From positions 79,501 through 143,500 of the forward strand of contig JAFCIZ010000011.1 in NCBI GenBank assembly GCA_017871115.1: a stretch of 64,000 nucleotides of DNA, given 5' to 3'. A program made the translations under genes and the position numbers. The DNA comes from Cunninghamella blakesleeana. Its lineage: Eukaryota; Mucoromycota; Mucoromycetes; Mucorales; Cunninghamellaceae. This document shows positions 17,701 through 59,370 of the stretch, piece by piece. Positions within the stretch are counted from its first letter, which is position 1. Every line of letters begins with the position of its first letter. A model generated the notes under the pieces. That model saw only the letters and a list, made by a program, of their open reading frames with translations. It was not told where the DNA came from and did not search any database.

Positions 17701-18671
17701 CACCTAGTTTGGATTTATTATCAAGAAAACCTATTTCTAAATACGCTCATTTAATTAATTATCCTATGGCCAAAATGATTTTAGGACAAGCTATTTTCCA
17801 AATTGCCATCAATTTAGTCTTATTATATTGCGGATTTGCTATTTTCCATTTGGACCCTGAGCATGATCAACAAGTCTTACGTACCATGGTCTTCAATGTA
17901 TTTGTGTTTTTACAAATCTTTAATGAAGTGAACTGTCGTCGTATTGATGCACACACATTGAATGTATTTAGTAATATTCACCGTCATGGTCTTTTTATCA
18001 TTGTTCAAGTATTTGTAATTTTTGGCCAATTCTTCATCGTTACTTATGGTGGCATCGCTTTCAAGACAGTCCCCTTAACTGGTGAACAATGGTTGATTAC
18101 TGTATTATTAGGTTCTTTGTCTTTACCTGTGGGTACTATCATTCGATTGATTCCCGATTGTGGTTGTGAACGTAAATTCAATGAAGAAGCCGAACCTTTA
18201 GCTTCATACTCAAGAATGAATTGGGAAGGTGCTATTGGTGATATTAGAAAAGAAATCAAAATTTTAAATTTATTACGCCGTAATGTTCATGGCCAAAAAC
18301 ACTATCAACACCAAGATACAAATCCATCTCATAGATATCATGAAAGAAGACAAAAATTAAAACAAAAATTATTCCATCGTAAATCAAGATCTTTACATCA
18401 TCCTATTACAACACCAACAGCAAATGATTCTCCTTCTTCATTCCTTTCGAATAATAATAACGATAATAATAATAAAAAGAAAGATACACCTCAACGTTCT
18501 TCCACTTTACCTCATGATGATGCTACTTCTCAACAACAAGATCATGAATCAACAACATCAGCATCTACTCATAATCGATTTGCAGATTTGGTTAATAGTG
18601 CAAAGGAATATCATAGAGCTGCAGATGAAGCACTCCAACGTCAACAAGATAAAGATTCCGGAAAGAAATAG
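14762..18671 (+). CDS. PMC1: P-type Ca2+-transporting ATPase (PMCA/Pmc1 type)
   Basis: Three exons, 14762-15089, 15250-15343 and 15578-18671, giving 1171 aa. It pumps Ca2+ out of the cytosol at the expense of ATP; fungal Pmc1 proteins act at the vacuole, so that location is inferred. Visible P2B features are the actuator motif TGES near 232, the membrane motif PEGLP, the phosphorylation motif SDKTGTLT with the acceptor Asp near 412, and the hinge motif TGDGTNDGPALK near 738, followed by C-terminal membrane helices. The C-terminal tail of about 150 residues is basic, then rich in His/Gln/Asn/Ser. I do not see a clear calmodulin-binding helix. Exon 2 restores the first transmembrane helix, and the tryptophan codon split across the last junction is consistent with correct splicing. 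Confidence 0.95.
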
Positions 18672-19821
18672 TAATAGCAATAAAATAGTAATTGTATTTT
18701 TATTTTTGAATGAAAGAGGTTGTTTATTAAATTATTTTTTTTATAAAAATCGTAATAAAATCGTAATAAATTTATTTAATTTTTAAATAAGGCTGTTTAA
18801 TTATTTATTCTTGTGTATGTATAAAAATAAATATAAAATCACGGTATTAAAAAAAAAAAAAAATAATAATAAAAATTCCCTTATTTTTTAGCAAGGCTCA
18901 TATACTTTAATATTTTCAACTTTTACAATATGAGTATATTTATATACGACTATATTTTTATTTTAGTACAATTTTATCCTAAATAGTAATAAGTACATTT
19001 TTTTAGTCCATAAGTAATTAGTAAAATGCAGTATGTATAAAAATCATCCATTTCGAAACATATTTTTTTAAAGCGACAAACATGATATATACATACATAT
19101 TTTTTTTATAATGCAAACGACTCCATTCTTTTCTAAGATATCCAGCTCCAATATTTTATTTAGCTCATATGTAGATATTCTGTTATAATATGTATAAAAA
19201 GCGTTTAATTTGGAAGGTTTGAAAGAATAGGATAGCAGAAGAATGAAAAGGAGTGGGTATTATTTTTATTTTGAAGAAAAAAAAAATATTAAACACAATA
19301 CCTTTATATATACTTATATATATGTACAGAATGACTACGTCCTTGATCTATTACAATTTCAAGTCAATTGATTTATTACCTAAGATAAATGAATATTTAA
19401 CTTGAAGTGTCATCAAGTTTTGAATAATCTTCAAAAAAAGTAAGAGTATATAGAGATTTTATTCCGTGCTCAGGTATATTGTTTGTTTATTGGAGAATAT
19501 ATCCAAATAATTAGTAACTTATTTTTCTTAATATACAAAATAAGAATGATGTCAAATAAAAAGAGTAAGATTATTTTATTAAGTATAATTTCAAAATAAT
19601 TATTTATTTTAAAAAATAAATACTGGTACGTAAAACCTAAAGATTATAATAATAAAGCTATTTTTTCTGAAAAATTAGAGTTTATATTTCATATCAAATC
19701 TATATTCGCTGTTTATACAATTATTAATTATTTTGCTATAGTTTTACTATTTATATATTTTTTTTTCCTTGATTCCAGTATTTTTCTTACATACAAGTTA
19801 AAGCACCAGTGGTTTGATAAA
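18672..19821. other. Intergenic between the Ca2+ pump and the hairpin array
   Basis: AT-rich spacer with TA-rich and homopolymer runs. I see no gene. The last 60 bases (about 19760-19821) show weak similarity to the spacer that precedes each later array unit (TTTCTTACATA.AA.....AA..ACCA). Confidence 0.5.
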
Positions 19822-20190
19822 CAATAATATCATGCTCTTCCAGTCTTCAATGCAGACCTAAAGACTTACAGATATTATTGTCTCTTTTATGCCAGAAAAT
19901 AGAATTTATTTACAATACATGCTCTTCCAGCCATCATACTGACCTAAAGACTTAAAGATATCGTAAATATGCTACTATATTCATACTCTTCCAGCTGTAT
20001 GAAGCCTAAAGTTTTACAGAAATAATAGCACTGATAAATCCTATTTCAGAATAATATGTATCTATGTATATAAATTTATGAAAATGTTAATTAGTTAACT
20101 GATACACATATGGTTAATATTTTTTATTTTATTAATATTCCTATTTATTCTTTCCTTACATATAAACCAAAGAACCAACAAATTGATAGA
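19822..20190. repeat. Array unit 1 (hairpins 19822-19880, 19908-19968, 19972-20028)
   Basis: Hairpin a is closed by CAATAATATC / GATATTATTG, a perfect 10-bp stem, with apical GTCT..AGAC. Hairpin b is closed by ATTTAC / GTAAAT, extended with one mismatch and one bulge. Hairpin c is closed by CTACTATATTC / GAAATAATAG with one mismatch and one bulge. The unit is 369 bp; the two following units are 360 bp. Confidence 0.85.
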
Positions 20191-20550
20191 CAATATTATC
20201 ATGCTCTTCCAGTCTTCAATGCAGACCTAAAGGCTTACAGATACTACTGCCTCTTTTATGCCAGAAAATAGAATTTATTTACAATACATGCTCTTCCAGC
20301 CATCATACTGACCTAAAGACTTAAAGATATCGTAAATATGCTACTATATTCATACTCTTCCAGCTATATGAAGCCTAAAGTTTTACAGAAATAGTAGTAT
20401 GGACAAACTCTATTACAAAAATAATGTATATAACATTACAAAAATATTAGTTAGTTAACTGATACACATATGGTTAATATTTTTTATTTTATTAATATTC
20501 CTATTTTTTCTTTCCTTACATATAAACCAAAAAACCAGCAAATTGATAGA
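20191..20550. repeat. Array unit 2 (hairpins 20191-20249, 20277-20337, 20341-20397)
   Basis: A 360-bp unit. Hairpin c is closed by CTACTATATTC / GAAATAGTAG, which pairs fully apart from one bulged A. Hairpin a has two mismatches in its closing stem (CAATATTATC / GATACTACTG). Apart from hairpin a, the unit is almost identical to unit 3. Confidence 0.85.
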
Positions 20551-20910
20551 CAACATTATCATGCTCTTCCAGTCTTCAATGCAGACCTAAAGACTTACAG
20601 ATATTATTGTCTCTTTTATGCCAGAAAATAGAATTTATTTACAATACATGCTCTTCCAGCCATCATACTGACCTAAAGACTTAAAGATATCGTAAATATG
20701 CTACTATATTCATACTCTTCCAGCTATATGAAGCCTAAAGTTTTACAGAAATAGTAGTATGGACAAACTCTATTACAAAAATAATGTATATAACATTACA
20801 AAAATATTAGTTAGTTAACTGATACACATATGGTTAATATTTTTTATTTTATTAATATTCCTATTTATTCTTTCCTTACATATAAACCAAAGAACCAACA
20901 AATTGATAGA
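20551..20910. repeat. Array unit 3 (hairpins 20551-20609, 20637-20697, 20701-20757)
   Basis: A 360-bp unit. Hairpins b and c appear identical to those of unit 2; hairpin a is closed by CAACATTATC / GATATTATTG with two mismatches. Confidence 0.85.
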
Positions 20911-21292
20911 CAATATTATCATGCTCTTCCAGTCTTCAATGCAGACCTAAAGACTTACAGATATTATTGTCTCTTTTATGCCAGAAAATAGAATTTATTT
21001 ACAATACATGCTCTTCCAGCCATCATACTGACCTAAAGACTTAAAGATATCGTAAATATGCTACTATATTCATACTCTTCCAGCTGTATGAAGCCTAAAG
21101 TTTTACAGAAATAATAGCACTGATAAATCCTATTTCAGAATAATATGTACCTATCTATATATATATCAATATATCTATATATAAACTTACAAAAATATTA
21201 GTTAATCGATACACACGGTTATTATTTTTTATTTTATTAATATTCCGATTCTTATTTTCCTAACATATAAACCAAAGAATCAATAAAGTAAT
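20911..21292. repeat. Array unit 4 (hairpins 20911-20969, 20997-21057, 21061-21117)
   Basis: Hairpin a is closed by CAATATTATC / GATATTATTG with one mismatch. Hairpin c has the unit-1 version (GAAATAATAG, apical GCTGTATGAAGC). The downstream spacer diverges and leads into the single fifth motif. Confidence 0.85.
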
Positions 21293-21357
21293 AATCAAAT
21301 TCATCACGCTTTTCCACCATTTTGTAAAAATGCCTAAAAGCTTATAGACATATGATT
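21293..21357. repeat. Diverged fifth-unit hairpin
   Basis: The internal-loop strands read GCTTTTCCA and CCTAAAAGCTTATAG, still recognisable. The apical part is a new hairpin (CATTTT / AAAATG) and the outer stem is again different (AATCA / TGATT). This copy keeps the architecture while changing most paired bases, which argues for selection on structure. Confidence 0.75.
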
Positions 21358-21862
21358 AAAATTCAAAAACTAAATAAGTAAATAAATGATAATCTTTGAG
21401 AAATATAAAAATAAAAAAAAAAGTTATAAAAAAGTTATATAGCTTGATTTATGGCAAAAAATTAAATAAATAAAAGTCAGATAAAAGGGCCAAAATTCAA
21501 ATAAGTAGAAATACGTTGTTTAGATATAAAATAGAATTAAAATAAAAATTACGATGAGAGCCCTGAAAACGAAAAAAGCTTCTTTTATTTTATTGAATTA
21601 GAAATAAAATCGAATTTATATGATTATTAAGATACACAAAATATCATTATAGTTGTTAAACAAAAAAATTGATGAAAATTATAATAAAGTTACTACAGGC
21701 AAATTGATAAAATAGTGATTAAGAATTATTTCATTCTCAGATTAAGTTTTGAGGATTAAAATTCCGACATTGTTTCAATTTCGAGGATTTTTTTTACCTC
21801 TCCAACTTCTTTTACTTAAAAAACTTCAGTTTTATATATACCTCTACTGATAACATGTCAAA
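21358..21862. other. Intergenic
   Basis: AT-rich spacer between the hairpin array and the next gene. No further copy of the hairpin motif is seen. Confidence 0.5.
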
Positions 21863-23458
21863 ATGGAAGAATTTTTTTTAGATTACGGAAAAAATAAGAA
21901 AAAGATAAGACTATCAGATTTTATTGTTTCCTATGAAAACGCGATAATACTTTATTGTTTTAATTGTAATTTAATGAAATGGGATAGTATTAAAGATAAT
22001 TTAACTACGAAATTCAAAAAGCTCTCAAAAAATGATAATAAAGTACGTTTTAGCCAATTATGTACTTTATAATCTTTAATATTAATATTAAGATTAATAT
22101 ATGTATTTATCTATAGAAATATATTAATGATAAAAATCAAATTGATTGGATTGATATTAGTAATAAAGTGAAAAGAGTACGCGTTTAATAAATTATATCC
22201 AATAAGAATATAAATTTAATGATTAATAAATACAATATTATTAATAATATCCTCATTATAATTTATTTTGTTCATTTAGTATCGAGCTTTTCAAATAGTA
22301 TCTGAAGCTGAAGGTAGTAAAACTATTAAGGAAGCCATCTTTTATACTGCAAATAATAATTTAAGTTCTAAATCTCAGCATATATCACCTTTAACATTAA
22401 AAGATAATATAAAACAATGGAAAAAAGAGAATAAATATCAAGAAAAAGTGCACCTCCAAGATTTATTATATTTCAATATCCTTGATTTTGTTACAGATGA
22501 TCAAACAAATGGAACTCATCAAGTATTGAAATTACATTATGAAAATGAAAAAAGCCGATATTTAATTAAACATCGACCATCCCAACATATTAAATATTTA
22601 ACAAAGGCACTGTTAAATTTTGAAAAATCATCATATAATCAAAATGACGAAATGAAATTAATATTAAAGCAATCAAAAATATTAATAAGACAGAATCATG
22701 ACGATGGTGACAGAAGCACCAAAAAAATTATTATTAAGATTTGCAAAACTTATTTATCGTTGGAGGATGAAAAGTATTATCTTTATGAAAAAAATATGAA
22801 CGAAAGTACTTATACAATGATATTCCTTCGACCAATTATTATATTAATATTCAAACCATTAAGCAATATTTTTAAATTTTTATGGGGCGAAGTGTCATTA
22901 CAATGCAAAAATGAATCGGACAATAAAATTCTTACAACAACTGATCGATCTGCCAGTAGTTCAAAAGTTGATGGAGTTATTATTGATGATGTATATAATA
23001 TGGAAGTTGGAATTATAGAAGTTTCAGGTCCTAATTATAAAGTTAACAAAGTTCATTATTTAGAAGATAAAAATAAGATTGCAAAAAATTTAAGAATAAT
23101 ATACAAATCTATCGAAGTAATAAAATCAACAACAAGTATGGTCATGATGAAGGATTTAAAGGTTTATGGTATTCAAGTGTATTTAAATGAATTACATGTT
23201 TATAGTTGTCGTCGTGCTTACTCTGGTCATTTTGTTTTCAATCGTGAACTTTCAATAGATATCCCATATAAAAAATCATACATTCACGGATTACCAAAGT
23301 TTCTATCACAACTTTGGACCATAAAAGAGCTATTTTATAACTTACACTTATCACTTACTCATATTATGAATGATCAAACTAGTTCAGAATCCAATTGTTC
23401 TTCTGATTCCAATGAATCGATTGTGTATACTCCTTTTTCAAAAAAACAAAAAATATAA
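21863..23458 (+). CDS. Unknown 472-aa protein, possible nuclease-like family
   Basis: Three exons, 21863-22042, 22117-22176 and 22280-23458, all phase 0, giving 472 aa. The N-terminal region has a short helix-rich segment ending DWIDISNKVKR that loosely recalls a SANT/Myb helix. The middle carries a KVDGVIIDD segment, then MEVGIIEVSGP, a pattern I associate with large Mucorales families of hypothetical proteins that may share a PD-(D/E)XK-like fold (D...ExxxEVS). The C-terminal part has a beta-rich stretch (VYGIQVYLNELHVYSC) and ends in Ser/Asn-rich sequence. No signal peptide or transmembrane helix is seen. It sits just downstream of the hairpin array and upstream of the eIF4A-like gene, same strand. 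Function unknown; the nuclease idea is a weak inference. Confidence 0.68.
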
Positions 23459-26520: not shown

Positions 26521-26853
26521 CTATTGATTTGCTTTGCAAAGAAAATATTGACAAACACCGTCCACAATTTTAGAAGAACCATTAATGGTTTGTTCGAATT
26601 TACAAGGGGTACCATCAGGAACAACAACGCCTTTAAATTTACCTTTTGAATCTTTACAAGATACACCAAGACATTTTTCAACATATTTATTATCTTTCTT
26701 AGGGTTATCCAGTACTAATTTATAACCTTCTCCACACTGTCTTTCCGCAACTTCTAACCATTTAGCATTGATGCTTGGTATTTGACTTTGTGATGCTTGA
26801 ACTACAAGTTGATAAGTGAATAAACAACAAATAGTGTAAACATATAATTTCAT
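26521..26853 (-). CDS. Small secreted cysteine-rich protein (110 aa)
   Basis: Intronless minus-strand frame. The start MKLYVYTICCLFTYQLVVQA is a signal peptide (cleavage near QAS). The mature part carries six cysteines (RQC, EKC, VSC, TPC, GVC, FLC) and a DGTPC...VDGVCQ pattern reminiscent of the cysteine-rich modules that follow metalloprotease domains, or of small knottin-like proteins. No catalytic motif is present. It lies about 1.3 kb from the I36-type array and, like it, is on the minus strand. It is probably secreted; partner and function are unknown. Confidence 0.72.
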   Translation of the reverse strand: MKLYVYTICCLFTYQLVVQASQSQIPSINAKWLEVAERQCGEGYKLVLDNPKKDNKYVEKCLGVSCKDSKGKFKGVVVPDGTPCKFEQTINGSSKIVDGVCQYFLCKANQ

Positions 26854-28167: not shown

Positions 28168-28524
28168 TTAACAATTCATAACCCATTTATGTGAAGCACC
28201 ACTGTCATTTGCAAGACTATTAGATGCAACTTCTTGTCCAGGTCCCAAACAAAGAACAACTTTCCCTCCAAAATGTGGCTCAGAGTATATCTCAACATGA
28301 TCCTTTATACCCGGACCCGATATACCATGATTTGCCCATGAACTATCGTTATCAGTTATAGGATCCTCCCACCATTCATCGTCGCCACTCCAATTGGTTC
28401 TTTGACCTTCAAAATTTGCATCTGTCCATGCACAAAATTCACCTGGTGGGCAATCAGCTGCTAAACTTGCTCTTACAAAAAAGAGAGTGGATAGTACTGT
28501 AATGCTGATTAGTTTGGTGAACAT
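28168..28524 (-). CDS. Secreted peptidase-inhibitor I36-like protein, copy A (118 aa)
   Basis: Signal peptide MFTKLISITVLSTLFFVRASLA, then a domain of about 96 aa with the layout of peptidase inhibitor family I36 and related beta/gamma-crystallin-like small proteins: CPPGEFCAW, FEGQ, W...WWEDP, NDSSWANHGISGPG, VEIYSEPHFGG, CLGPGQ, ASHKWVMNC. Four cysteines fit two disulfides. In bacteria I36 members inhibit metallopeptidases; whether this one inhibits a protease is inferred only from fold similarity. It is the first of four tandem units, and the 5' flank is nearly identical to that of copy B, so regulation is probably shared. Confidence 0.8.
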   Translation of the reverse strand: MFTKLISITVLSTLFFVRASLAADCPPGEFCAWTDANFEGQRTNWSGDDEWWEDPITDNDSSWANHGISGPGIKDHVEIYSEPHFGGKVVLCLGPGQEVASNSLANDSGASHKWVMNC

Positions 28525-29291: not shown

Positions 29292-29648
29292 CTAACAACT
29301 CATAGCCCATTTATGTGAAGCTCCTTTTTTGCTTGCACCTATATTACTTGCAACTTCTTGTCCAGGTGCTAAACAAAGAACGGGTTTTCCTACCCAGTTT
29401 GGCTCAGCGTATATTAAAACATGATCCTTTACACCTGGACCTGATATACCATGGTTTGCCCATGAATTATCGTTACCAGCTATAGGATCCTCCCACCATC
29501 CATCGTCGCCACTCCAATTGGTTCTTTGACCTTCAAAATTTTCATTTGTCCATACACAAAACTCACCTGGTGGGCAATCAGCTGCTAAACTTGCTCTTAC
29601 AAAAAAGAGAGTGGATAATACTGTAATGTTGATTAATTTGATAAACAT
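29292..29648 (-). CDS. Secreted peptidase-inhibitor I36-like protein, copy B (118 aa)
   Basis: Same length and architecture as copy A (signal peptide MFIKLINITVLSTLFFVRASLA; CPPGEFCVW, FEGQ, WWEDP, NDNSWANHGISGPG, VLIYAEPNWVG, CLAPGQ, ASHKWAMSC). Differences cluster in the loop after VxIY and before the final ASHKW, consistent with a conserved scaffold and variable contact loops. The four cysteines are conserved. Its 5' flank (29660-29740) repeats that of copy A. Confidence 0.8.
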   Translation of the reverse strand: MFIKLINITVLSTLFFVRASLAADCPPGEFCVWTNENFEGQRTNWSGDDGWWEDPIAGNDNSWANHGISGPGVKDHVLIYAEPNWVGKPVLCLAPGQEVASNIGASKKGASHKWAMSC

Positions 29649-43540: not shown

Positions 43541-44524
43541 ATGGTCTCTTTCTTACCTACATCGTCCGATAAAATAAAAAAATATAAAAAAAAAATTCCT
43601 TTTATTTTTAAACAAGCTTCACCACTATCTCTCCTTTACCTTGAAGCAAGACTTATTAATAGTGCAGTATGGAAGGCAAGTGCTGACTGGCAGCCATGTG
43701 ATTTAAATTATTTTAAAATAAAATTCGAAAATGTTACCAATTTTAAAGACTTTTTCAACGAAGAGATGCCATCTTATAACGATTTTAATGAACAAATAAA
43801 AGAATTTATAAATTGTGGTCTTATTATCCATGCTAATTCTCTTACCCAGCTGAAAATAGATTGGTCAGTGGTAATCAAGTCATCACTTGCTAGAAATGTG
43901 ATTAAAAATTTAATGATGATAGATTTTTATAAAAATGATCTATCAGTTGTGGATGATTTATCTCATTCTCTACTTCAGTTATTTGACTATGATGCAGATG
44001 ATCGTGTGATTCATTACCATAAAGATGTTATTCCTGAACCATTTGTTATGGGGCAACAATATTTATATGCATTCGTTCCTAATATATCTATTAGATGTAT
44101 GCACAAAAATCATGTTAAATTTGTACAGGAAAATAATGTCAACGACTATAAACACCTAGAACATGATTTCTCGGATCCATATATACACCCTGAAAGAATA
44201 AAGCTTGTTGCTGATACCATAGCAGCATGTGTAAACAACTATAATAAGGGTTTCAGCTATAATAAATCAGAAAATTTTAAATATGGACACTTGGTGCCCG
44301 GCATTGTTATGTTTAAAACTCGTCCCATGTTTTTATTGTTGAATATGACAGAAGATCTATTATTTTCTGTAGGAAAAGGTGAACCACCATTAAAGGAAAC
44401 AATAGTAAAACAATACCTTGTACCTCCACCAGAATATTATTCTTCAGAAATAGCCAAGGGACTCAGAGATCAAAGATTGCATATTGCTTCTTGTTATAAA
44501 GCATTTAGGAAATTTGTGATGTAA
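43541..44524 (+). CDS. 330-aa fungal family protein, copy 1 (327 aa)
   Basis: Intronless. It starts MVSFLPTSSDKIKKYKKK. The central region has DLSHSLLQLFDYDADDRVIHYHKD, then VPNISIR...HVKFVQENN, then IKLVADTIAA and GIVMFKTRPMFLLLNMTEDLL, and a C-terminus ending SCYKAFRKFVM. It resembles a broadly distributed family of fungal hypothetical proteins whose central PD...QE(D/N)K-like pattern suggests a PD-(D/E)XK-type fold. Here the positions read PN...QENN, so catalysis would be lost if that relationship holds (weak inference). No signal peptide or transmembrane helix. Four relatives lie in this window, and flanks are duplicated with them. Confidence 0.72.
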   Translation: MVSFLPTSSDKIKKYKKKIPFIFKQASPLSLLYLEARLINSAVWKASADWQPCDLNYFKIKFENVTNFKDFFNEEMPSYNDFNEQIKEFINCGLIIHANSLTQLKIDWSVVIKSSLARNVIKNLMMIDFYKNDLSVVDDLSHSLLQLFDYDADDRVIHYHKDVIPEPFVMGQQYLYAFVPNISIRCMHKNHVKFVQENNVNDYKHLEHDFSDPYIHPERIKLVADTIAACVNNYNKGFSYNKSENFKYGHLVPGIVMFKTRPMFLLLNMTEDLLFSVGKGEPPLKETIVKQYLVPPPEYYSSEIAKGLRDQRLHIASCYKAFRKFVM

Positions 44525-45266: not shown

Positions 45267-46247
45267 ATGGTTTCTTTCGTGTCAACTTTATCTAATAAAA
45301 TAAAAAATTATAAAAAGAAATGTCTTTTTATTTTTAATGACCCACCACTGCCACCATCTTACCTTGAAGCAAGGCTTATTAATAAAGCATTATGGAAATC
45401 GAGCACTGACTGGCAATCAAGCGATTTAGATTATTTTAATATAAGAGTCAAAAATGCCAATTTTAAAGACTTTTTCAACGAAGAAATCCCATCTTACGAA
45501 GATTTTAATGAACAAGTAAAAGAATTTATGAATTGTGATCCTTTCATTGGCAATAATTATTTTTCTCGACAAGAAATAGATTGGTCAACAGCAGTCAAGT
45601 CATCACTTGCTAGAAATGTGATTAAAAATTTAATGTTGATAAATTTTTATAATAATAATTCATCAGTTGTGAATGATTTATCTTTTTCTCTACTTCAGTT
45701 ATTTGATTATGATGCAGATGATCGTGTGATTCACCGCAACAAAGATATTTTTTTAAAACCATCATTTATTTTAGAGCCACAGTATCTATATACATTCATT
45801 CCTAATCTATCTATTGAAAGTATTCATGAAAAACATATTAAATTTGTACAGGAAAATAGTTTCAACGATTATAACCAAATAGGGTGTTGTTTTCCAAATT
45901 CAAGTATACGTCCAGAAGAAACAAAATTTGTTGCAGATGCCATAGCAGCCTTTCTGCACAATTTTCGAATGCATCATTATTACAAAAAATCAGAGACTTT
46001 TAAATCTAAACAGTGGATACCTGGTATTATTATGTTTAAAACTCGTCCCATGTTTTTATTGGTGAATATGACAGAAGATCTATTATTTTCTGTAGGAAAA
46101 GGCGAACAGCCATTAAAAGAAACGATAGTAAAACAATACCTTGTACCTCCACCAGAATATTATTCTTCAGAAATAACCAAGGGACTCAGAGATCAAAGAC
46201 TGCATATTGCTTCTTGTTATAAAGCATTTAGGAAATTTGTGATGTAA
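45267..46247 (+). CDS. 330-aa fungal family protein, copy 2 (326 aa)
   Basis: Intronless tandem paralogue of the gene at 43541-44524. It starts MVSFVSTLSNKIKNYKKK and has the same layout: LLQLFDYDADDRVIH, FIPNLSIESIHEKHIKFVQENS, FVADAIAAF, GIIMFKTRPMFLLVNMTEDLL and SCYKAFRKFVM. The last 75 codons are nearly identical at nucleotide level to copy 1, whereas the first 230 residues have diverged considerably, with scattered substitutions and small indels. That pattern suggests gene conversion of the 3' part. Function unknown. Confidence 0.72.
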   Translation: MVSFVSTLSNKIKNYKKKCLFIFNDPPLPPSYLEARLINKALWKSSTDWQSSDLDYFNIRVKNANFKDFFNEEIPSYEDFNEQVKEFMNCDPFIGNNYFSRQEIDWSTAVKSSLARNVIKNLMLINFYNNNSSVVNDLSFSLLQLFDYDADDRVIHRNKDIFLKPSFILEPQYLYTFIPNLSIESIHEKHIKFVQENSFNDYNQIGCCFPNSSIRPEETKFVADAIAAFLHNFRMHHYYKKSETFKSKQWIPGIIMFKTRPMFLLVNMTEDLLFSVGKGEQPLKETIVKQYLVPPPEYYSSEITKGLRDQRLHIASCYKAFRKFVM

Positions 46248-49653: not shown

Positions 49654-49748
49654 AACAACTAATATCACTAGCTCGTGTAATATTGTTAATACTTCATAAA
49701 TTCGTATTTACATCATATTACACTTCGCTTTCCGTGATATTAGTTGTT
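49654..49748. repeat. DIRS internal complementary region
   Basis: The 95-bp stretch is the complement of both element ends: 49654-49719 pairs with 49353-49418, and 49716-49748 pairs with the other end (about 53719-53752), overlapping by four bases (TATT). It also contains the end of the recombinase coding frame (stop at 49708). Confidence 0.95.
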
Positions 49749-50757
49749 CATTCAGAGTTTCTTCTGTTATATTAGATGACCCATAGGAAGATACACGATA
49801 GAAGTGTTCGAAAATATCTTTAGAGGACCAAGACCCATGGGCTACAATATCATCCACTGAAATGCCTGCTTGGGCAGCTAAGGTGGCCGCTAATGCTCTT
49901 GCACTTGGAATTGGAGCACCTTCTTCTTTATTAACCTTTGACATTATTTCCCTAATATATTTAGCTATTCTGTCTTTCGACAGAGGCATACTAAGATCAT
50001 TCACATATCTATATAATCTATTTATTTTTATGTCTTGGAAATTAGGATGTGGAGTATAGCACGGAATGTCAACAATTAAATTGTGGTAGTGTTGGTAAGC
50101 TTGGACTGGACATAAAAGTTTATTTGAGTGTGGGTGGATAGCCACTCTTTTATGTATATGCTTACCCTTCCTTTTTTCTTTTGGTGCTATAACCAATAAA
50201 TGTAGGATTCCTTTGTTGTCGATACGGTTTTTGTCCATATCGATACGAGCAATATCCGATGGACGAAGGAAACCTGCCATAGCTAATAACCAGATAGATT
50301 TTATAGTGATCATAGTAGTGGTAAGTGATGAATTATTTCCTAGGTTAGAAATATAATGTAAAGCAGGATGTATGTCGTAATCCCATTTTTTGTTAGGTTG
50401 TATAGTATTATTATCTATAGCTTTTAGTAAAGTAATAAAACTCTCATTATTTTTAATTAATTGTTGAGTTTTTTTATTATATAGTTGAAGTAAAGCTGTG
50501 GAGTATACACGAATTGTACTTGTCGAATATCTTCGACTGTGATAAATATCGGAGAGGAAATTAACAATGTGGATATGTGGATCAGTATTATAATCAATGG
50601 ATTTATCTTCACACCATTGTTTAAATTTTTGTTGGTTGTTGTTATAAGTTTTGCATACTTTATTTTTGTGTTGGTCAATTATTGTTGTTGCTGTTTTGGA
50701 AAGTTGATTTAATTTTCTCTTTTTGGATGGTTGATGTTCCACGCTAGCATTGTCCAT
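49708..50757 (-). CDS. DIRS tyrosine recombinase
   Basis: Frame of 349 aa from an ATG at 50757 (MDNASVEHQPSKKRK, a basic segment that may act as a nuclear signal). The N-terminal helical SAM-like part (KQWCEDKSIDYNTDP, NFLSDIYHSRRYSTSTIRVYSTAL) binds DNA in this family. Catalytic-domain hallmarks are GFLRPSDIARI (first Arg), a KEKRKGKHIHKRVAI beta segment, SARALAATLAAQAG (second Arg), VAHGSWSSKDIFEHFY (His/Trp and the nucleophilic Tyr). Mobilisation step: integration of the circular cDNA. The same frame stays open upstream to 53544 through the pol and gag regions; I regard that extension as fortuitous. The C-terminal codons lie in the internal complementary region. Confidence 0.88.
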   Translation of the reverse strand: MDNASVEHQPSKKRKLNQLSKTATTIIDQHKNKVCKTYNNNQQKFKQWCEDKSIDYNTDPHIHIVNFLSDIYHSRRYSTSTIRVYSTALLQLYNKKTQQLIKNNESFITLLKAIDNNTIQPNKKWDYDIHPALHYISNLGNNSSLTTTMITIKSIWLLAMAGFLRPSDIARIDMDKNRIDNKGILHLLVIAPKEKRKGKHIHKRVAIHPHSNKLLCPVQAYQHYHNLIVDIPCYTPHPNFQDIKINRLYRYVNDLSMPLSKDRIAKYIREIMSKVNKEEGAPIPSARALAATLAAQAGISVDDIVAHGSWSSKDIFEHFYRVSSYGSSNITEETLNEQLISRKAKCNMM

Positions 50758-52688
50758 TGATCGTTTTTTTGTATTTTTTGTTGAAGGTGTTGGATGGGAT
50801 ATTGTTGAAGATGTAGTTGATGGTGATTCTGGTGTAGAGTTGATAATGATTGTTGAATGGGTTGGTGAATTAATTGATATTGGTGAAGAAGTATTGGTGA
50901 TTGGTTGGTCAATTGTCTTAGGAGAGGAAACCAAGGGGCTGATGGCCAGTTCGGTGTCAAAAGTGTTGCTTTTGTCGGTTGTAACCAAAGTCTCTGTATT
51001 ATTTTGGATAATAGGTTCCAAGGAGGTGCTATGTATAAGCGACCTGTTATTGTTGACCAGTCCTTGGAAAAAGCATTGATCCAAGTTGCTTGATGATGAT
51101 ATTGAAGGGAAACAAATTTCTTGAGTTGGCTGTTGTTGTGTGTCGCAAAAAGATCTATTGAATGAGGTCCCCATAATTGATCTATCATCTGAAATGTGTT
51201 CTTTGGTAGTGTCCATTCTATTTCTTATTGAAGTTGGCGTGATGGTGCATCCGCAGGGTTTAGTTTGGACGGAACATATAGGGTGGATAGGTATATGGAT
51301 TGATGGAAGCATAGTTTCCAGATAGACATCGCTATTTGGTTCAGTATCAATGAACGAGTTCCCCCGTAATGTTGTACATAAGCAATTGCCGAACGGTTGT
51401 CTGAGCAAATCTGTATATGTTGAAAACGTTGGAATTGTAGATGTTGAAATATCTTTTTGATTGTCAATAATTCCTTGACATTGATGTGGTATTTCAGTTC
51501 CTGTTTGGACCATCGACCCTGTATTTTCTGTTGGCCCCATACTATAGCCCATCCTTTGTCTGATGCATCCGTGAAAATCTGAATTGTCGGTAGATTGTTG
51601 ATAATGTGGTGTCCATTCCATTTCGTTAGTTGAGAGATCCACCAAATTAATTCTGCTTTCATTTGTTGATTGATCTGGCAATGGGAATGATGTCTGAAAC
51701 GATTTAGAATTTGAACCATGGATCTCGTCCGAAGTCTTGCTTGTTGATTGCCCAGTTGAGTGGCTAGAACTGTGCCTATGAATCTCGATAGGTTGGTCCA
51801 AGTTGTTGTTGTCTTTTTCAATAACTGGTAGGCCATGCGTCGTATCGATCTGATCTTCTTTCCTGGAACTGATATCATCATATCTTTTGAATTTATAATC
51901 ATCCCTAAGTGTTGAATGTGTTGTTGGGGATTTAGAGAAGACTTTTTGATATTTATCATCCATCCTAATTGTGTCATTTTTTCTATTACTTGTTTGGTTT
52001 GAAGATTTGCTTGTGCTTTGGAAGATGCCATTATCAACAAATCGTCTAGGTAAGCTGTAATCCTTATACCCTTTCTTCTTGCCCAACGAAGTATTGGTTT
52101 TAATATTTTTGTGAATATAAGTGGAGAAAGGCTGAGGCCGAATGGTAAAACTTTGTATTGGTATATTTGGTCTTTCCATTTGAATTGTAGTAGATGTCTT
52201 GAAGAAGGGTGGATTGGGATGTGATGAAAGGCGTCCTGAAGATCTATGGAGGTAAGGTAATCTCCTTGTTGTAGGATTTTGGTTATTGTCGTCATTGATT
52301 CCATCTTGAAGTGATAAGTTGGTAAATAATTGTTGAGTTGTTTTAAATTGAGAATGGTGCGAAGGCCTCCATCTTTCTTTGGAATCACGAAGATGTTGGA
52401 GTGGAAACCTATTGAGTGTGAAGGGATTGGTTCTATGGCTTGTTTTTGTAATAAGGTTTGTATCTCTAATTCTATGGTGTTGGTGGAAGTCTGATTGTGT
52501 AGTTGTGGTTGATGATGAAATAGGTATGGAAAGGTGAGAGGAGGTTGGTGGCGAAGAGGAATTTTGTATCCTTGATGAATTATTTGATGAATCCATGAAG
52601 GTAAAGGAGAAGGTAAGGAAGAAGACCAAAAGGAAGAGAAATAAGAAAGACGACCTCCTACAGGTATTATATCCTTTTGTTGGAATGA
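50709..52688 (-). pseudogene. DIRS reverse transcriptase/RNase H (pol), interrupted by one stop
   Basis: The pol frame runs on from the end of gag, overlapping it in the -1 frame. Reverse-transcriptase motifs are visible: KKDGGLRTILNLKQLN, LTSIDLQDAFHHIPI, YKVLPFGLSLSPLIFTK and the catalytic YLDD. RNase H follows (IFTDASDKGWAI, VKELLTI, SDNRSAIAYV, then VPSKLNPADAPSR). A TAA codon at 51225-51227 breaks the frame, but the same frame continues immediately to 50709 with the family-typical DQLWGPHSIDLFATHNN and PPWNLLSKIIQRL segment. The stop could be a point mutation in a recently active copy or a readthrough site. The downstream part overlaps the recombinase start by about 50 bases. Confidence 0.85.
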
Positions 52689-53566
52689 TGGCGTGAATGA
52701 AATTTTTGAAAAGAATTTTTAATAAAAGGGTTGTTAGAATTAGTGTTAGAATCTTTTGAATTATTAAATTTGTTGGATTGTTTAGCGTCGTATGAATTAT
52801 TAGAATGTGGAAATCTCGATTGTGAATAATCTTCATTAGTGACCCCTGAATTAATGTCGTTATTAAAGGAGGATTTATGTCGGGGTTTATTACGCATGAA
52901 TTTTTTATTTGTAGTTTGTTGGATAGACTGTTGAAGTTTGATGTGATCAGCCAATTCTTTTGGATCCATAAGAAGGTTATCATCAGCGGAAGGAGGAGAA
53001 ACTCTTGTAGGTAGTCCTTTACAAACATTTTCTTGTCGAAGTGTGGTAAGGTGAGATGCCAAATCTGATAAAAGAGCATCGATATTTGCCAGAAAGTCCA
53101 AGGTATGTTGTTGTTGTTGCTCCGGTGTCCAATTATTATAAAGAAGTTGATAAGTGAACCAATCCATTGGACGAGTGATACCTGATAATCGGTATTGGAT
53201 ATCATAAAGATGGTTATTAATAATCTTTGCTTGTGTTGATTGACTAACTTTGATCGATTTTGGTGGTTCATATGTGCGAAGAGTATTTTTAGGACAATCG
53301 AATATAAAGCGGCGACGATCTGTATCCAGCAAAGTATGACGAAAGAAATCTTTTTGTATATAAGGGCATTGTTGTAACATATCGGCTGTAGGTGTGAAAT
53401 CTGCACCAGGAAAACGGATTTGTACATTAGGATCATCATTATGGAAAGGATGATTGGAAGAAGAAGAGGCTTCCAATTGCTCGATTCTTTGGAGAAGATT
53501 AATGGCCCATTGTGGAGCTTGTTCATTAGAATTATTAGGAACATTAGTAGATTCGTTAGTAGACAT
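52667..53566 (-). CDS. DIRS gag-like protein
   Basis: Frame of 299 aa. The ATG at 53566 (MSTNESTNVPNNSNEQAP) was chosen because the upstream part of the open frame crosses the terminal repeat and a poly-T run. A short coiled-coil-like segment (INLLQRIEQLEASSS) precedes the conserved-looking region (FIFDCPKNTLRTYEPP, IQYRLSGITRPMDWFTYQLLYNNWTPEQQQQHTLDFLANIDALLSDLASHLTTLRQENVCKGL). It ends in a basic Asn/Ser-rich tail without zinc knuckles. The role is presumed to be packaging the element's RNA. The stop at 52667 overlaps the pol frame. Confidence 0.8.
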   Translation of the reverse strand: MSTNESTNVPNNSNEQAPQWAINLLQRIEQLEASSSSNHPFHNDDPNVQIRFPGADFTPTADMLQQCPYIQKDFFRHTLLDTDRRRFIFDCPKNTLRTYEPPKSIKVSQSTQAKIINNHLYDIQYRLSGITRPMDWFTYQLLYNNWTPEQQQQHTLDFLANIDALLSDLASHLTTLRQENVCKGLPTRVSPPSADDNLLMDPKELADHIKLQQSIQQTTNKKFMRNKPRHKSSFNNDINSGVTNEDYSQSRFPHSNNSYDAKQSNKFNNSKDSNTNSNNPFIKNSFQKFHSRHHSNKRI

Positions 53567-53610
53567 AATCAACGACGGAAGTCCAGTGCGTAGTAAAATA
53601 GTCGAACGAA

Positions 53611-53752
53611 AAGAAGATAAAAAAAAAAAAAAAAAAAAAAAGGAAAAAAATTTTATTTTATAATAATTTTTAAAACTCAGTAGTAAAATTGTTCGATCTA
53701 AATAAAGGAAAAGAATGATAACAACTAATATCACGGAAAGCGAAGTGTAATA
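53611..53752. repeat. DIRS terminal repeat, 5' end of element
   Basis: Inverse complement of 49403-49526 up to 53737, plus a short outer extension (GGAAAGCGAAGTGTAATA) that is absent from the other terminal repeat but is complementary to the internal region at 49716-49748. Confidence 0.92.
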
Positions 53753-58286: not shown

Positions 58287-59273
58287 TTATACCACAAATT
58301 TTCTAAATGCTTTATAACAAGAAGCAACGTGTAATCTTTGATCCCTGAGTTCCTTTATTATTTCTAGAGAATGATATTCTGGAGAGGGTACAAAGTATTG
58401 CTTTATTACTGTTTCCTTTAATGGTGGCTCACCCTTTTCAACAGCATGTAGTAAATCCTCCGTCATATACATCAATAAAAACATGGGACGAGTTTTAAAC
58501 ATAACAATACCGGGCATCCATTGTTCAGCTTTAAAAATTTCAGATTTTTTGTAATAGCGATACATACGTGAATTATGCTGAAAGGCTGCTATGATATCTG
58601 CAACAAATTTTATCTCTTCAGGATGTATATATGGATTAGGAAAACTATGTCCTAGATGATTGAAACAGTGAATTCTATTTTCTTGCACAAATTTAATATG
58701 TTTTTCACGCATGGTTTCAATAGACAGATTAGGAATGAGTACCTTTGGGTCTCGTGGTTCCAGCATATATGATGGTTTTAGCGAAATATCTTTACGATAA
58801 TGAATCACACGATCGTCTGCATCATAGCCGAATAATTGAAGTAATGAATGAGATAAATCATCCACAACAGGTAATTTTTTTTTATAAAAATTTACCATCA
58901 TTAAATTTTTGATCACATTTCTAGCAAGTGGTGAATAGACCATTGTTGACCAATTAATTGACGATTTAGTAAGAGAGTCAGTATGAATAATATGGTCACA
59001 ATTTATAAACTCTTTTACTTGTTCATTAAAATCGTCATAAGATGGCATCTCTTCGTTGAAAAAGTCTTTAAAATTAGTAACATTTTCGAATTTTATTTTA
59101 AAATAATCTAAATCGCTAAGCTGCCATTTAGTACTTGTTTTCCATAGTGCTCTATTTACAAAATCTGCGCCGCTATAAGATGAAGCTACTTGTGGGTCTT
59201 GTTTAAAAAGAAAAGGGTGCTTCTTTTTATAATTTTTTATTTTGTCGGACAATGTAGGCAAGAAAGAAACCAT
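58287..59273 (-). CDS. 330-aa fungal family protein, copy 3 (328 aa)
   Basis: Intronless minus-strand paralogue. The ATG at 59273 (MVSFLPTLSDKIKNYKKKHP) matches the start of copies 1 and 2; an upstream in-frame ATG only adds poly-Phe sequence. It has LLQLFGYDADDRVIHYRKD, LIPNLSIETMREKHIKFVQENR, FVADIIAAF, GIVMFKTRPMFLLMYMTEDLLHAV, and ends SCYKAFRKFVV. The C-terminal part is more diverged (QYFVPSPEYHSLEIIKELRDQRLHVA), so it did not share the recent homogenisation seen between copies 1 and 2. The promoter block lies 98 bases upstream. Confidence 0.72.
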   Translation of the reverse strand: MVSFLPTLSDKIKNYKKKHPFLFKQDPQVASSYSGADFVNRALWKTSTKWQLSDLDYFKIKFENVTNFKDFFNEEMPSYDDFNEQVKEFINCDHIIHTDSLTKSSINWSTMVYSPLARNVIKNLMMVNFYKKKLPVVDDLSHSLLQLFGYDADDRVIHYRKDISLKPSYMLEPRDPKVLIPNLSIETMREKHIKFVQENRIHCFNHLGHSFPNPYIHPEEIKFVADIIAAFQHNSRMYRYYKKSEIFKAEQWMPGIVMFKTRPMFLLMYMTEDLLHAVEKGEPPLKETVIKQYFVPSPEYHSLEIIKELRDQRLHVASCYKAFRKFVV

Positions 59274-59370
59274 TTTAAAAAATAAAAAAAATGGAAAGAA
59301 AAAATATAAGTAAAAAAGAAAAAAAAACAAAAAAATTAAAAAAAAAATTACCTTTTAAATCCAAAATGTG

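Follow-up and report, generated by a model that had tools for sequence, protein, structure and literature searches.

A tandem array of look-alike hairpins in Cunninghamella blakesleeana as a candidate undescribed structured RNA

What is a tandem array of look-alike hairpins, standing between two genes of the fungus Cunninghamella blakesleeana, and on which strand would it work? The window considered here, i.e., the whole stretch of 64,000 nucleotides that was analysed (C11:79501-143500, from an assembly of 31.9 Mb in 12 contigs), has a G+C content of 26.1%. Tandem Repeats Finder reports a single tandem array at 19814-21117, with a period of 360, 3.6 copies, and 95% matches. Thirteen motif anchors, every one written on the plus strand, span 19835 to 21309: they lie at 19835, 19922, 19986, 20204, 20291, and 20355 in units 1 and 2, and at 20564, 20651, 20715, 20924, 21011, 21075, and 21309 in units 3 and 4 and the thirteenth copy. 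The four tandem units contain three hairpins apiece, and their anchors are spaced by 369, 360, and 360 bp. Both the anchors and the repeat finder thus agree with the preliminary description of this DNA, which had claimed four units of about 360 bp with three hairpins each plus one diverged copy, and the array of look-alike hairpins is confirmed as real and above chance. The features are given below; the hairpins of units 1 to 4 were placed from the motif anchors and the folding of the minus strand.

19820..19882, minus strand: unit 1, hairpin 1 (the limits are the stem ends)
19907..19969, minus strand: unit 1, hairpin 2
19969..20031, minus strand: unit 1, hairpin 3
20189..20251, minus strand: unit 2, hairpin 1
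20276..20338, minus strand: unit 2, hairpin 2
20338..20400, minus strand: unit 2, hairpin 3
20549..20611, minus strand: unit 3, hairpin 1
20636..20698, minus strand: unit 3, hairpin 2
20698..20760, minus strand: unit 3, hairpin 3
20909..20971, minus strand: unit 4, hairpin 1
20996..21058, minus strand: unit 4, hairpin 2
21058..21120, minus strand: unit 4, hairpin 3
21191..21316 (C11:100691-100816), no strand: spacer and the start of the thirteenth hairpin, 79% identical to the matching part of unit 3
21288..21357, minus strand: diverged thirteenth hairpin of a truncated fifth unit, unformed in the whole-strand fold

Among the 13 copies, eight distinct hairpin sequences are found (62 bases compared). 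The claim that all copies share a motif on both sides of an internal loop holds for CCTAAAG, which is exact in 12 of 13 copies and reads CCTAAAA in the thirteenth. On the other side, there is no one common word: GCTCTTCCA is exact in only eight copies, namely, hairpins 1 and 2, and its place is taken by ACTCTTCCA in the four copies of hairpin 3 and by GCTTTTCCA in the thirteenth. Hairpin 2 is identical in all four units (72 bases compared), and the stretch from hairpin 3 through hairpin 1 is nearly the same in units 1 to 4, the outer flank of unit 1 having drifted. This near-identity could result from selection or from gene conversion. Since hairpins 1, 2, and 3 have only the core in common, they probably split long before the units were duplicated, and hairpin 13 appears to be part of a truncated fifth unit that has retained its spacer. 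The hairpin 1 of unit 2 (20189-20251) differs from that of unit 4 by four transitions (three A to G and one T to C), all in the 5' half as read on the minus strand. The array contains no long open reading frame, as had been stated before, the six frames over 19800-21360 staying free of stops for 58 codons at most. A small peptide common to the hairpins on the minus strand was also considered, one frame being open for 43 codons, and was rejected: the distance from TTTAG to TGG, read by eye, is 15, 14, 12, and 17 nt in hairpins 1, 2, 3, and 13, and a distance that differs between hairpins allows no common reading frame.

On the minus strand, the repeated module of about 63 nt has an outer stem that varies freely; inwards of it come an internal loop, an irregular helix that is conserved, and a free tip. 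The outer stem of 11-13 bp closes on a C-G pair and is followed by 5'-UNUAA facing AU, an internal loop that represents one of two possible pairings. The inner helix starts with G-C (A-U in hairpin 3), Y-G (unpaired in hairpin 3), and a bulged A, continues with C-G (U-A in hairpin 13), U-A, U-A, U.G, an A.G mismatch, and G.U, and ends with G-C (unpaired in hairpin 13) before the free tip. In most copies, this irregular helix is made of GYCUUUAGG and CUGGAAGAGC, with the A.G mismatch between U.G and G.U. The inner part was proposed by RNAalifold, unguided, from the minus alignment. The alternative inner pairing joins column 24 with 54 and columns 18-20 with 57-55. Of three hairpin-1 copies tested, two have a lower model energy with this alternative, and so, by a small margin, do the two hairpin-3 copies, in which that test misaligns the outer stem; hairpin 2, the hairpin 1 of unit 2, and hairpin 13 favour the bulged-A form. 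Conserved bases, some of them unpaired, occupy both sides of the loop and of the irregular helix. When the minus strand is folded as a whole (1671 nt), 12 of the 13 hairpins form with core pair probabilities of 0.62-0.97, and hairpin 13 does not (0.32); this stretch folds at -385.2 kcal/mol on the minus strand and at -237.3 kcal/mol on the plus strand.

The strand that would be read is probably the minus one. The hairpins had been drawn on the plus strand, which turns out to be the poorer-folding one, and energies, shuffle z-scores, and variable sites point to the minus strand instead. The predicted energy is lower on the minus strand for all 13 hairpins, with sums of -215.9 vs. -96.2 kcal/mol on the plus strand. 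The z-scores against 500 dinucleotide shuffles each, obtained for six hairpins, are -4.07, -2.35, -2.10, -2.13, -1.45, and -1.88 on the minus strand and, in the same order, -2.76, -0.69, +1.44, -0.58, -2.00, and -1.11 on the plus strand, so that the minus value is better in five of six. At the nine variable paired sites, a standard pair is retained only on the minus strand in seven, only on the plus strand in one, and on neither in one; the 7-to-1 count gives 0.035 in a one-sided sign test under the bulged-A inner pairing, and the alternative inner pairing, counted by hand, moves one site and yields 6 to 2, which is not significant. G.U outnumbers A.C by 22 to 8, in a composition-sensitive count that covered six of the eight distinct hairpins, two hairpin-1 copies being merged with others. 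Over 1543 bases of the array, the minus-plus energy difference is -147 kcal/mol, against -46 to +118 in 39 control tiles; the value of 118 is reached by strongly skewed tiles, and the GC skew of the array itself is -0.29. As GC skew explains part of the gap, the difference of -147 kcal/mol supports the minus strand without settling the matter. RNAalifold gives both alignments equal consensus energies (-2.96 kcal/mol on plus and -2.93 kcal/mol on minus), and the own outer arms of type 1 pair slightly better on the plus strand (-12.2 vs. -11.2 kcal/mol on minus).

The preliminary description had named a covariance test without support beyond the tandem duplication among the outcomes that would speak against it. 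This is not what was found: the outer arms of types 1 to 3 are unrelated, and each pairs well only with its own partner. On the minus strand, own-partner arms give -11.2, -10.4, and -10.5 kcal/mol for types 1, 2, and 3, whereas partners taken from other types give -4.4 kcal/mol or weaker; type 13 reaches -2.4 kcal/mol with its own arms, the 5' one of which was truncated for this test. Under the bulged-A structure, which was chosen for scoring after the unguided minus fold, 82.5% of 143 cells pair, both sides have changed at 9 of 21 pairs, where shuffles average 4.7 and 0 of 500 reach that number, and the covariation score of 0.327 compares with a shuffle mean of 0.180 (0 of 500) and with 0.215 for the best slid version. 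The alternative structure gives 81.5% paired cells, 8 of 23 pairs changed on both sides (6 of 500), and a score of 0.269 (0 of 500). The count of further pair types is not striking, with 64 of 500 shuffles as high for the bulged-A structure and 41 of 500 for the alternative. The pair counts took seven of the eight distinct hairpins, with hairpin 1 of unit 4 omitted and the outer stem of hairpin 3 off by one column. The hairpins are paralogues of one locus, hence the covariation counts have limited independence.

Is such a module known? Rfam 15 gave 0 matches at the gathering score in the whole window. At E<=10, the region 19600-21500 gave one match, to LPR10 (19.7 bits vs. a gathering score of 69, E 1.7), which was rejected as a chance-level match far under the gathering score. 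ARAGORN, run in its bacterial setting, found 0 tRNA or tmRNA genes in the window, in accordance with the earlier statement that no tRNA is matched. No H/ACA or C/D snoRNA family of Rfam was matched, and the boxes, sought by eye only, gave none that is convincing. The earlier proposal of an undescribed RNA or a ribozyme-like satellite is therefore to be divided: covariation in the inner and outer helices and the lack of an Rfam family make an undescribed structured RNA well supported, and the ribozyme part has found no positive evidence. Class I RNAs of dictyostelid amoebae were also entertained, from a UUACAG likeness on the plus strand. They resemble the hairpins in their length of about 60 nt and in the varying end-to-end stem with a conserved motif beside it (PMC7919456). 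However, the published definition, as far as given in this source, does not fit: Class I RNAs begin with AAG, end with CUGU, are closed by a terminal stem of 6 bp, and are preceded by a DUSE element about 60 nt upstream (PMC7919456), whereas the array hairpins, judged by eye, have other ends and outer stems of 11-13 bp. No comparable array was found in the literature among the matches listed.

Pattern and BLAST-type searches of its own genome, which strongly diverged copies may escape, place the array at one locus. A 66-base hairpin-1 query matched four places genome-wide and a whole-unit query five, all of them within the array, the fifth with 79% identity over 132 query bases. The pattern CTTCCAN{4,30}CCTAAAG gave 38 matches, 12 of them in the array, vs. 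41 for the reversed control, and the 26 matches outside the array are thus background; cmsearch over these 26 loci gave three matches up to E 10, the best at 0.26. The covariance models used with cmsearch, R1 and R2, each list 9 of the 13 hairpins, probably as hairpins 2 and 3 adjoin, and the matches of R2 arise by construction. More specific patterns return to the array: of the 14 matches that CTYTTCCAN{4,34}CCTAAANNNTTA has in the 31.9 Mb assembly, the array accounts for 13 (reversed control 1), and all matches of CCTAAANNNTTANAGANAT (12; control 2) and of TAAGNYTTTAGGN{6,30}TGGAA (9; control 1) lie there. Two matches in viral contigs, near-identical to one another and folding unlike the array hairpins, are taken as chance, and the prokaryote collection gave 0 matches.

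The best of the mechanisms considered for the array is that of a multivalent RNA. It is proposed, with a probability of about 40%, that a noncoding RNA transcribed from the minus strand would show many copies of one protein-binding module, working in the manner of roX or CsrB. The minus strand would be transcribed across the array, and one structural module would be repeated thirteen times in the resulting RNA. The two-sided conservation, including unpaired bases and lying between freely varying stems, suggests that the conserved loop and the irregular helix may serve as the recognition motif for a protein or a ligand, and a dozen such sites on one RNA could gather or sequester an RNA-binding protein, by sequestration or by scaffolding. 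The structured motif was observed in 13 copies, with covariation, 12 of which form in the whole-strand fold, and these would lie in a single transcript. Against this reading stand the equal RNAalifold energies on both strands, the one hairpin of six with a better z-score on plus, and the poorly formed hairpin 13. The roX RNAs of Drosophila provide a parallel, with several linker-joined stem-loops in one RNA as repeated binding sites; exon 3 of roX2 contains eight stem-loops with flexible linkers between them and is bound by MLE (PMC6451107). In the bacterial CsrB and CsrC, one RNA sequesters a protein through many copies of a small site (PMC5027483). The likeness to both is one of working only: the roX RNAs have a known binding protein, and CsrB and CsrC are bacterial and use a short GGA motif, whereas the fungal array has a long motif on two sides of an internal loop. 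It is doubtful, though conceivable, that the array represents a new eukaryotic class of multivalent structured RNA, present at a single locus and perhaps confined to Cunninghamella or Mucorales, with a new loop motif that would bind a dedicated protein or a small ligand or be catalytic.

The main rival is a cluster of Dicer-processed, microRNA-like precursors, in which each minus-strand hairpin would be cut and release small RNAs with a shared seed, e.g., from the 3' arm starting UGGAAGAG. Minus hairpins of about 63 nt with few bulges, arranged as tandem paralogues with a common core, would suit such processing, and Mucor possesses endogenous Dicer-dependent small RNAs (PMC4395119). The complement of the 3' arm, CATGCTCTTCCA, has 151 matches with at most one mismatch, 12 of them in the array, vs. 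90 for the reversed control, which is a modest excess. However, for the 5' arm, CCTAAAGACTTACAGA gives no target excess (18 matches with at most two mismatches, 12 in the array, vs. 23 for the control), the conservation is centred on the tip-proximal half and not on one 21-nt arm, and a single guide strand does not need conserved unpaired bases on both arms. We consider this explanation unlikely. A DNA-level element, i.e., a satellite with no role as RNA or a set of palindromic binding sites, homogenised by tandem duplication and gene conversion, seems rather improbable. It is consistent with the single locus in genome searches, with the near-identity of units 1-4 from hairpin 3 to hairpin 1, as conversion would yield, and with a spacer that is partly conserved too (79%). 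DNA would not be expected to retain G.U-type variants more on one strand, and the pairing that types 1-3 keep despite unrelated outer arms also argues against it.

Two further explanations concern how the RNA would be read and what it would do. A structured RNA on the plus strand, as drawn in the preliminary description, has a slim chance: RNAalifold gives both inner helices on the plus alignment (8 pairs, 4 of them changed on both sides), the outer arms of type 1 pair slightly better there, and hairpin 3 of unit 2 has the better z-score on plus, yet energies, shuffle z-scores, and the variable-site count favour minus, and hairpin 2 on plus is weaker than its own shuffles (z +1.44). An array of small self-cleaving ribozymes, perhaps twister-sister-like, is unlikely to a degree that we hardly expect it. 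Twister sister was entertained from a C-A/AAG likeness on the minus strand, where the internal loop of hairpins 1 and 2 has a C-A step facing an AAG run. In twister-sister-like (lantern) ribozymes, such a loop lies between two stems and the cut falls between C and A; they share with the array an asymmetric conserved internal loop between two varying stems and, in 8 of 13 hairpins, the C-A step (PMC11620745). This step is not conserved among the hairpins: the presumed cleavage site reads CA in 8 of 13, UA in 4 (hairpin 3), and CG in 1 (hairpin 13). The loop pairs C8-G40 and U9-A39 given in that source (PMC11620745) are without counterpart, by eye, when the C-A steps are overlaid, and a cleaving satellite would not be expected to hold three different hairpins with uneven spacing. 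No ribozyme family was matched in Rfam at E<=10, and twister sister was set aside.

The array is of interest as an RNA candidate that combines covariation within a single genome with the lack of an Rfam match and with a strand that can be named as probable. Should it gather a protein, roX and CsrB would have a counterpart among fungi in its way of working; if it is cut by Dicer, it would be an unusual cluster of paralogous hairpins in an early-diverging fungus.

The array lies between two genes on the plus strand. Upstream is a gene for a P-type cation-ATPase (Ca2+-ATPase-like), whose last open reading frame ends at 18671, and downstream is a gene at about 21.86-23.46 kb, the earlier exons of which were read by eye. 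The 3' open reading frame of the downstream gene has no Pfam domain. The protein encoded by 22448-23455 has eight matches, including one in Cunninghamella echinulata that is 86% identical over 80% of the query; the others named are in Mucor circinelloides, Choanephora cucurbitarum, Pilaira anomala, and Parasitella parasitica. A minus-strand transcript of the array would head towards the ATPase gene, leaving the gene at 21.86-23.46 kb behind it. The two U6 genes of this genome have a common upstream element, read by eye as CCACAATTTGRCWTGAAC, together with a TATA-like word. The element has one match with three mismatches in the window (26562-26582, 0.01 expected by chance), and since this sole match is away from the array, a U6-type promoter of this form is absent from the array. 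At such a G+C content, little can be read into the TATA-like and AATAAA-like words seen by eye around the units.

Several other features were observed in the window. On the minus strand, 49708-53734 contains overlapping open reading frames that by eye resemble a retroelement in which a reverse transcriptase is combined with a tyrosine-recombinase-like end; we presume that it is of the DIRS/Ngaro type. Three paralogous open reading frames of 326-347 aa lie at 43541-44524 (plus), 45267-46247 (plus), and 58287-59330 (minus), and in the first of them no Pfam domain was found at E<=0.01. Around AAATTTCCTAAATGCTTTATAACAAGAAGCAATATGCA, a near-identical stretch occurs three times, at 44509 (minus), 46232 (minus), and 63672 (plus), and two of its copies overlap the 3' ends of the frames that begin at 43541 and 45267. 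A pair of similar, secreted-looking open reading frames of 118 aa is located on the minus strand at 28168-28524 and 29292-29648, and the one at 28168-28524 matches Pfam Inhibitor_I36 with E 9.5e-15.
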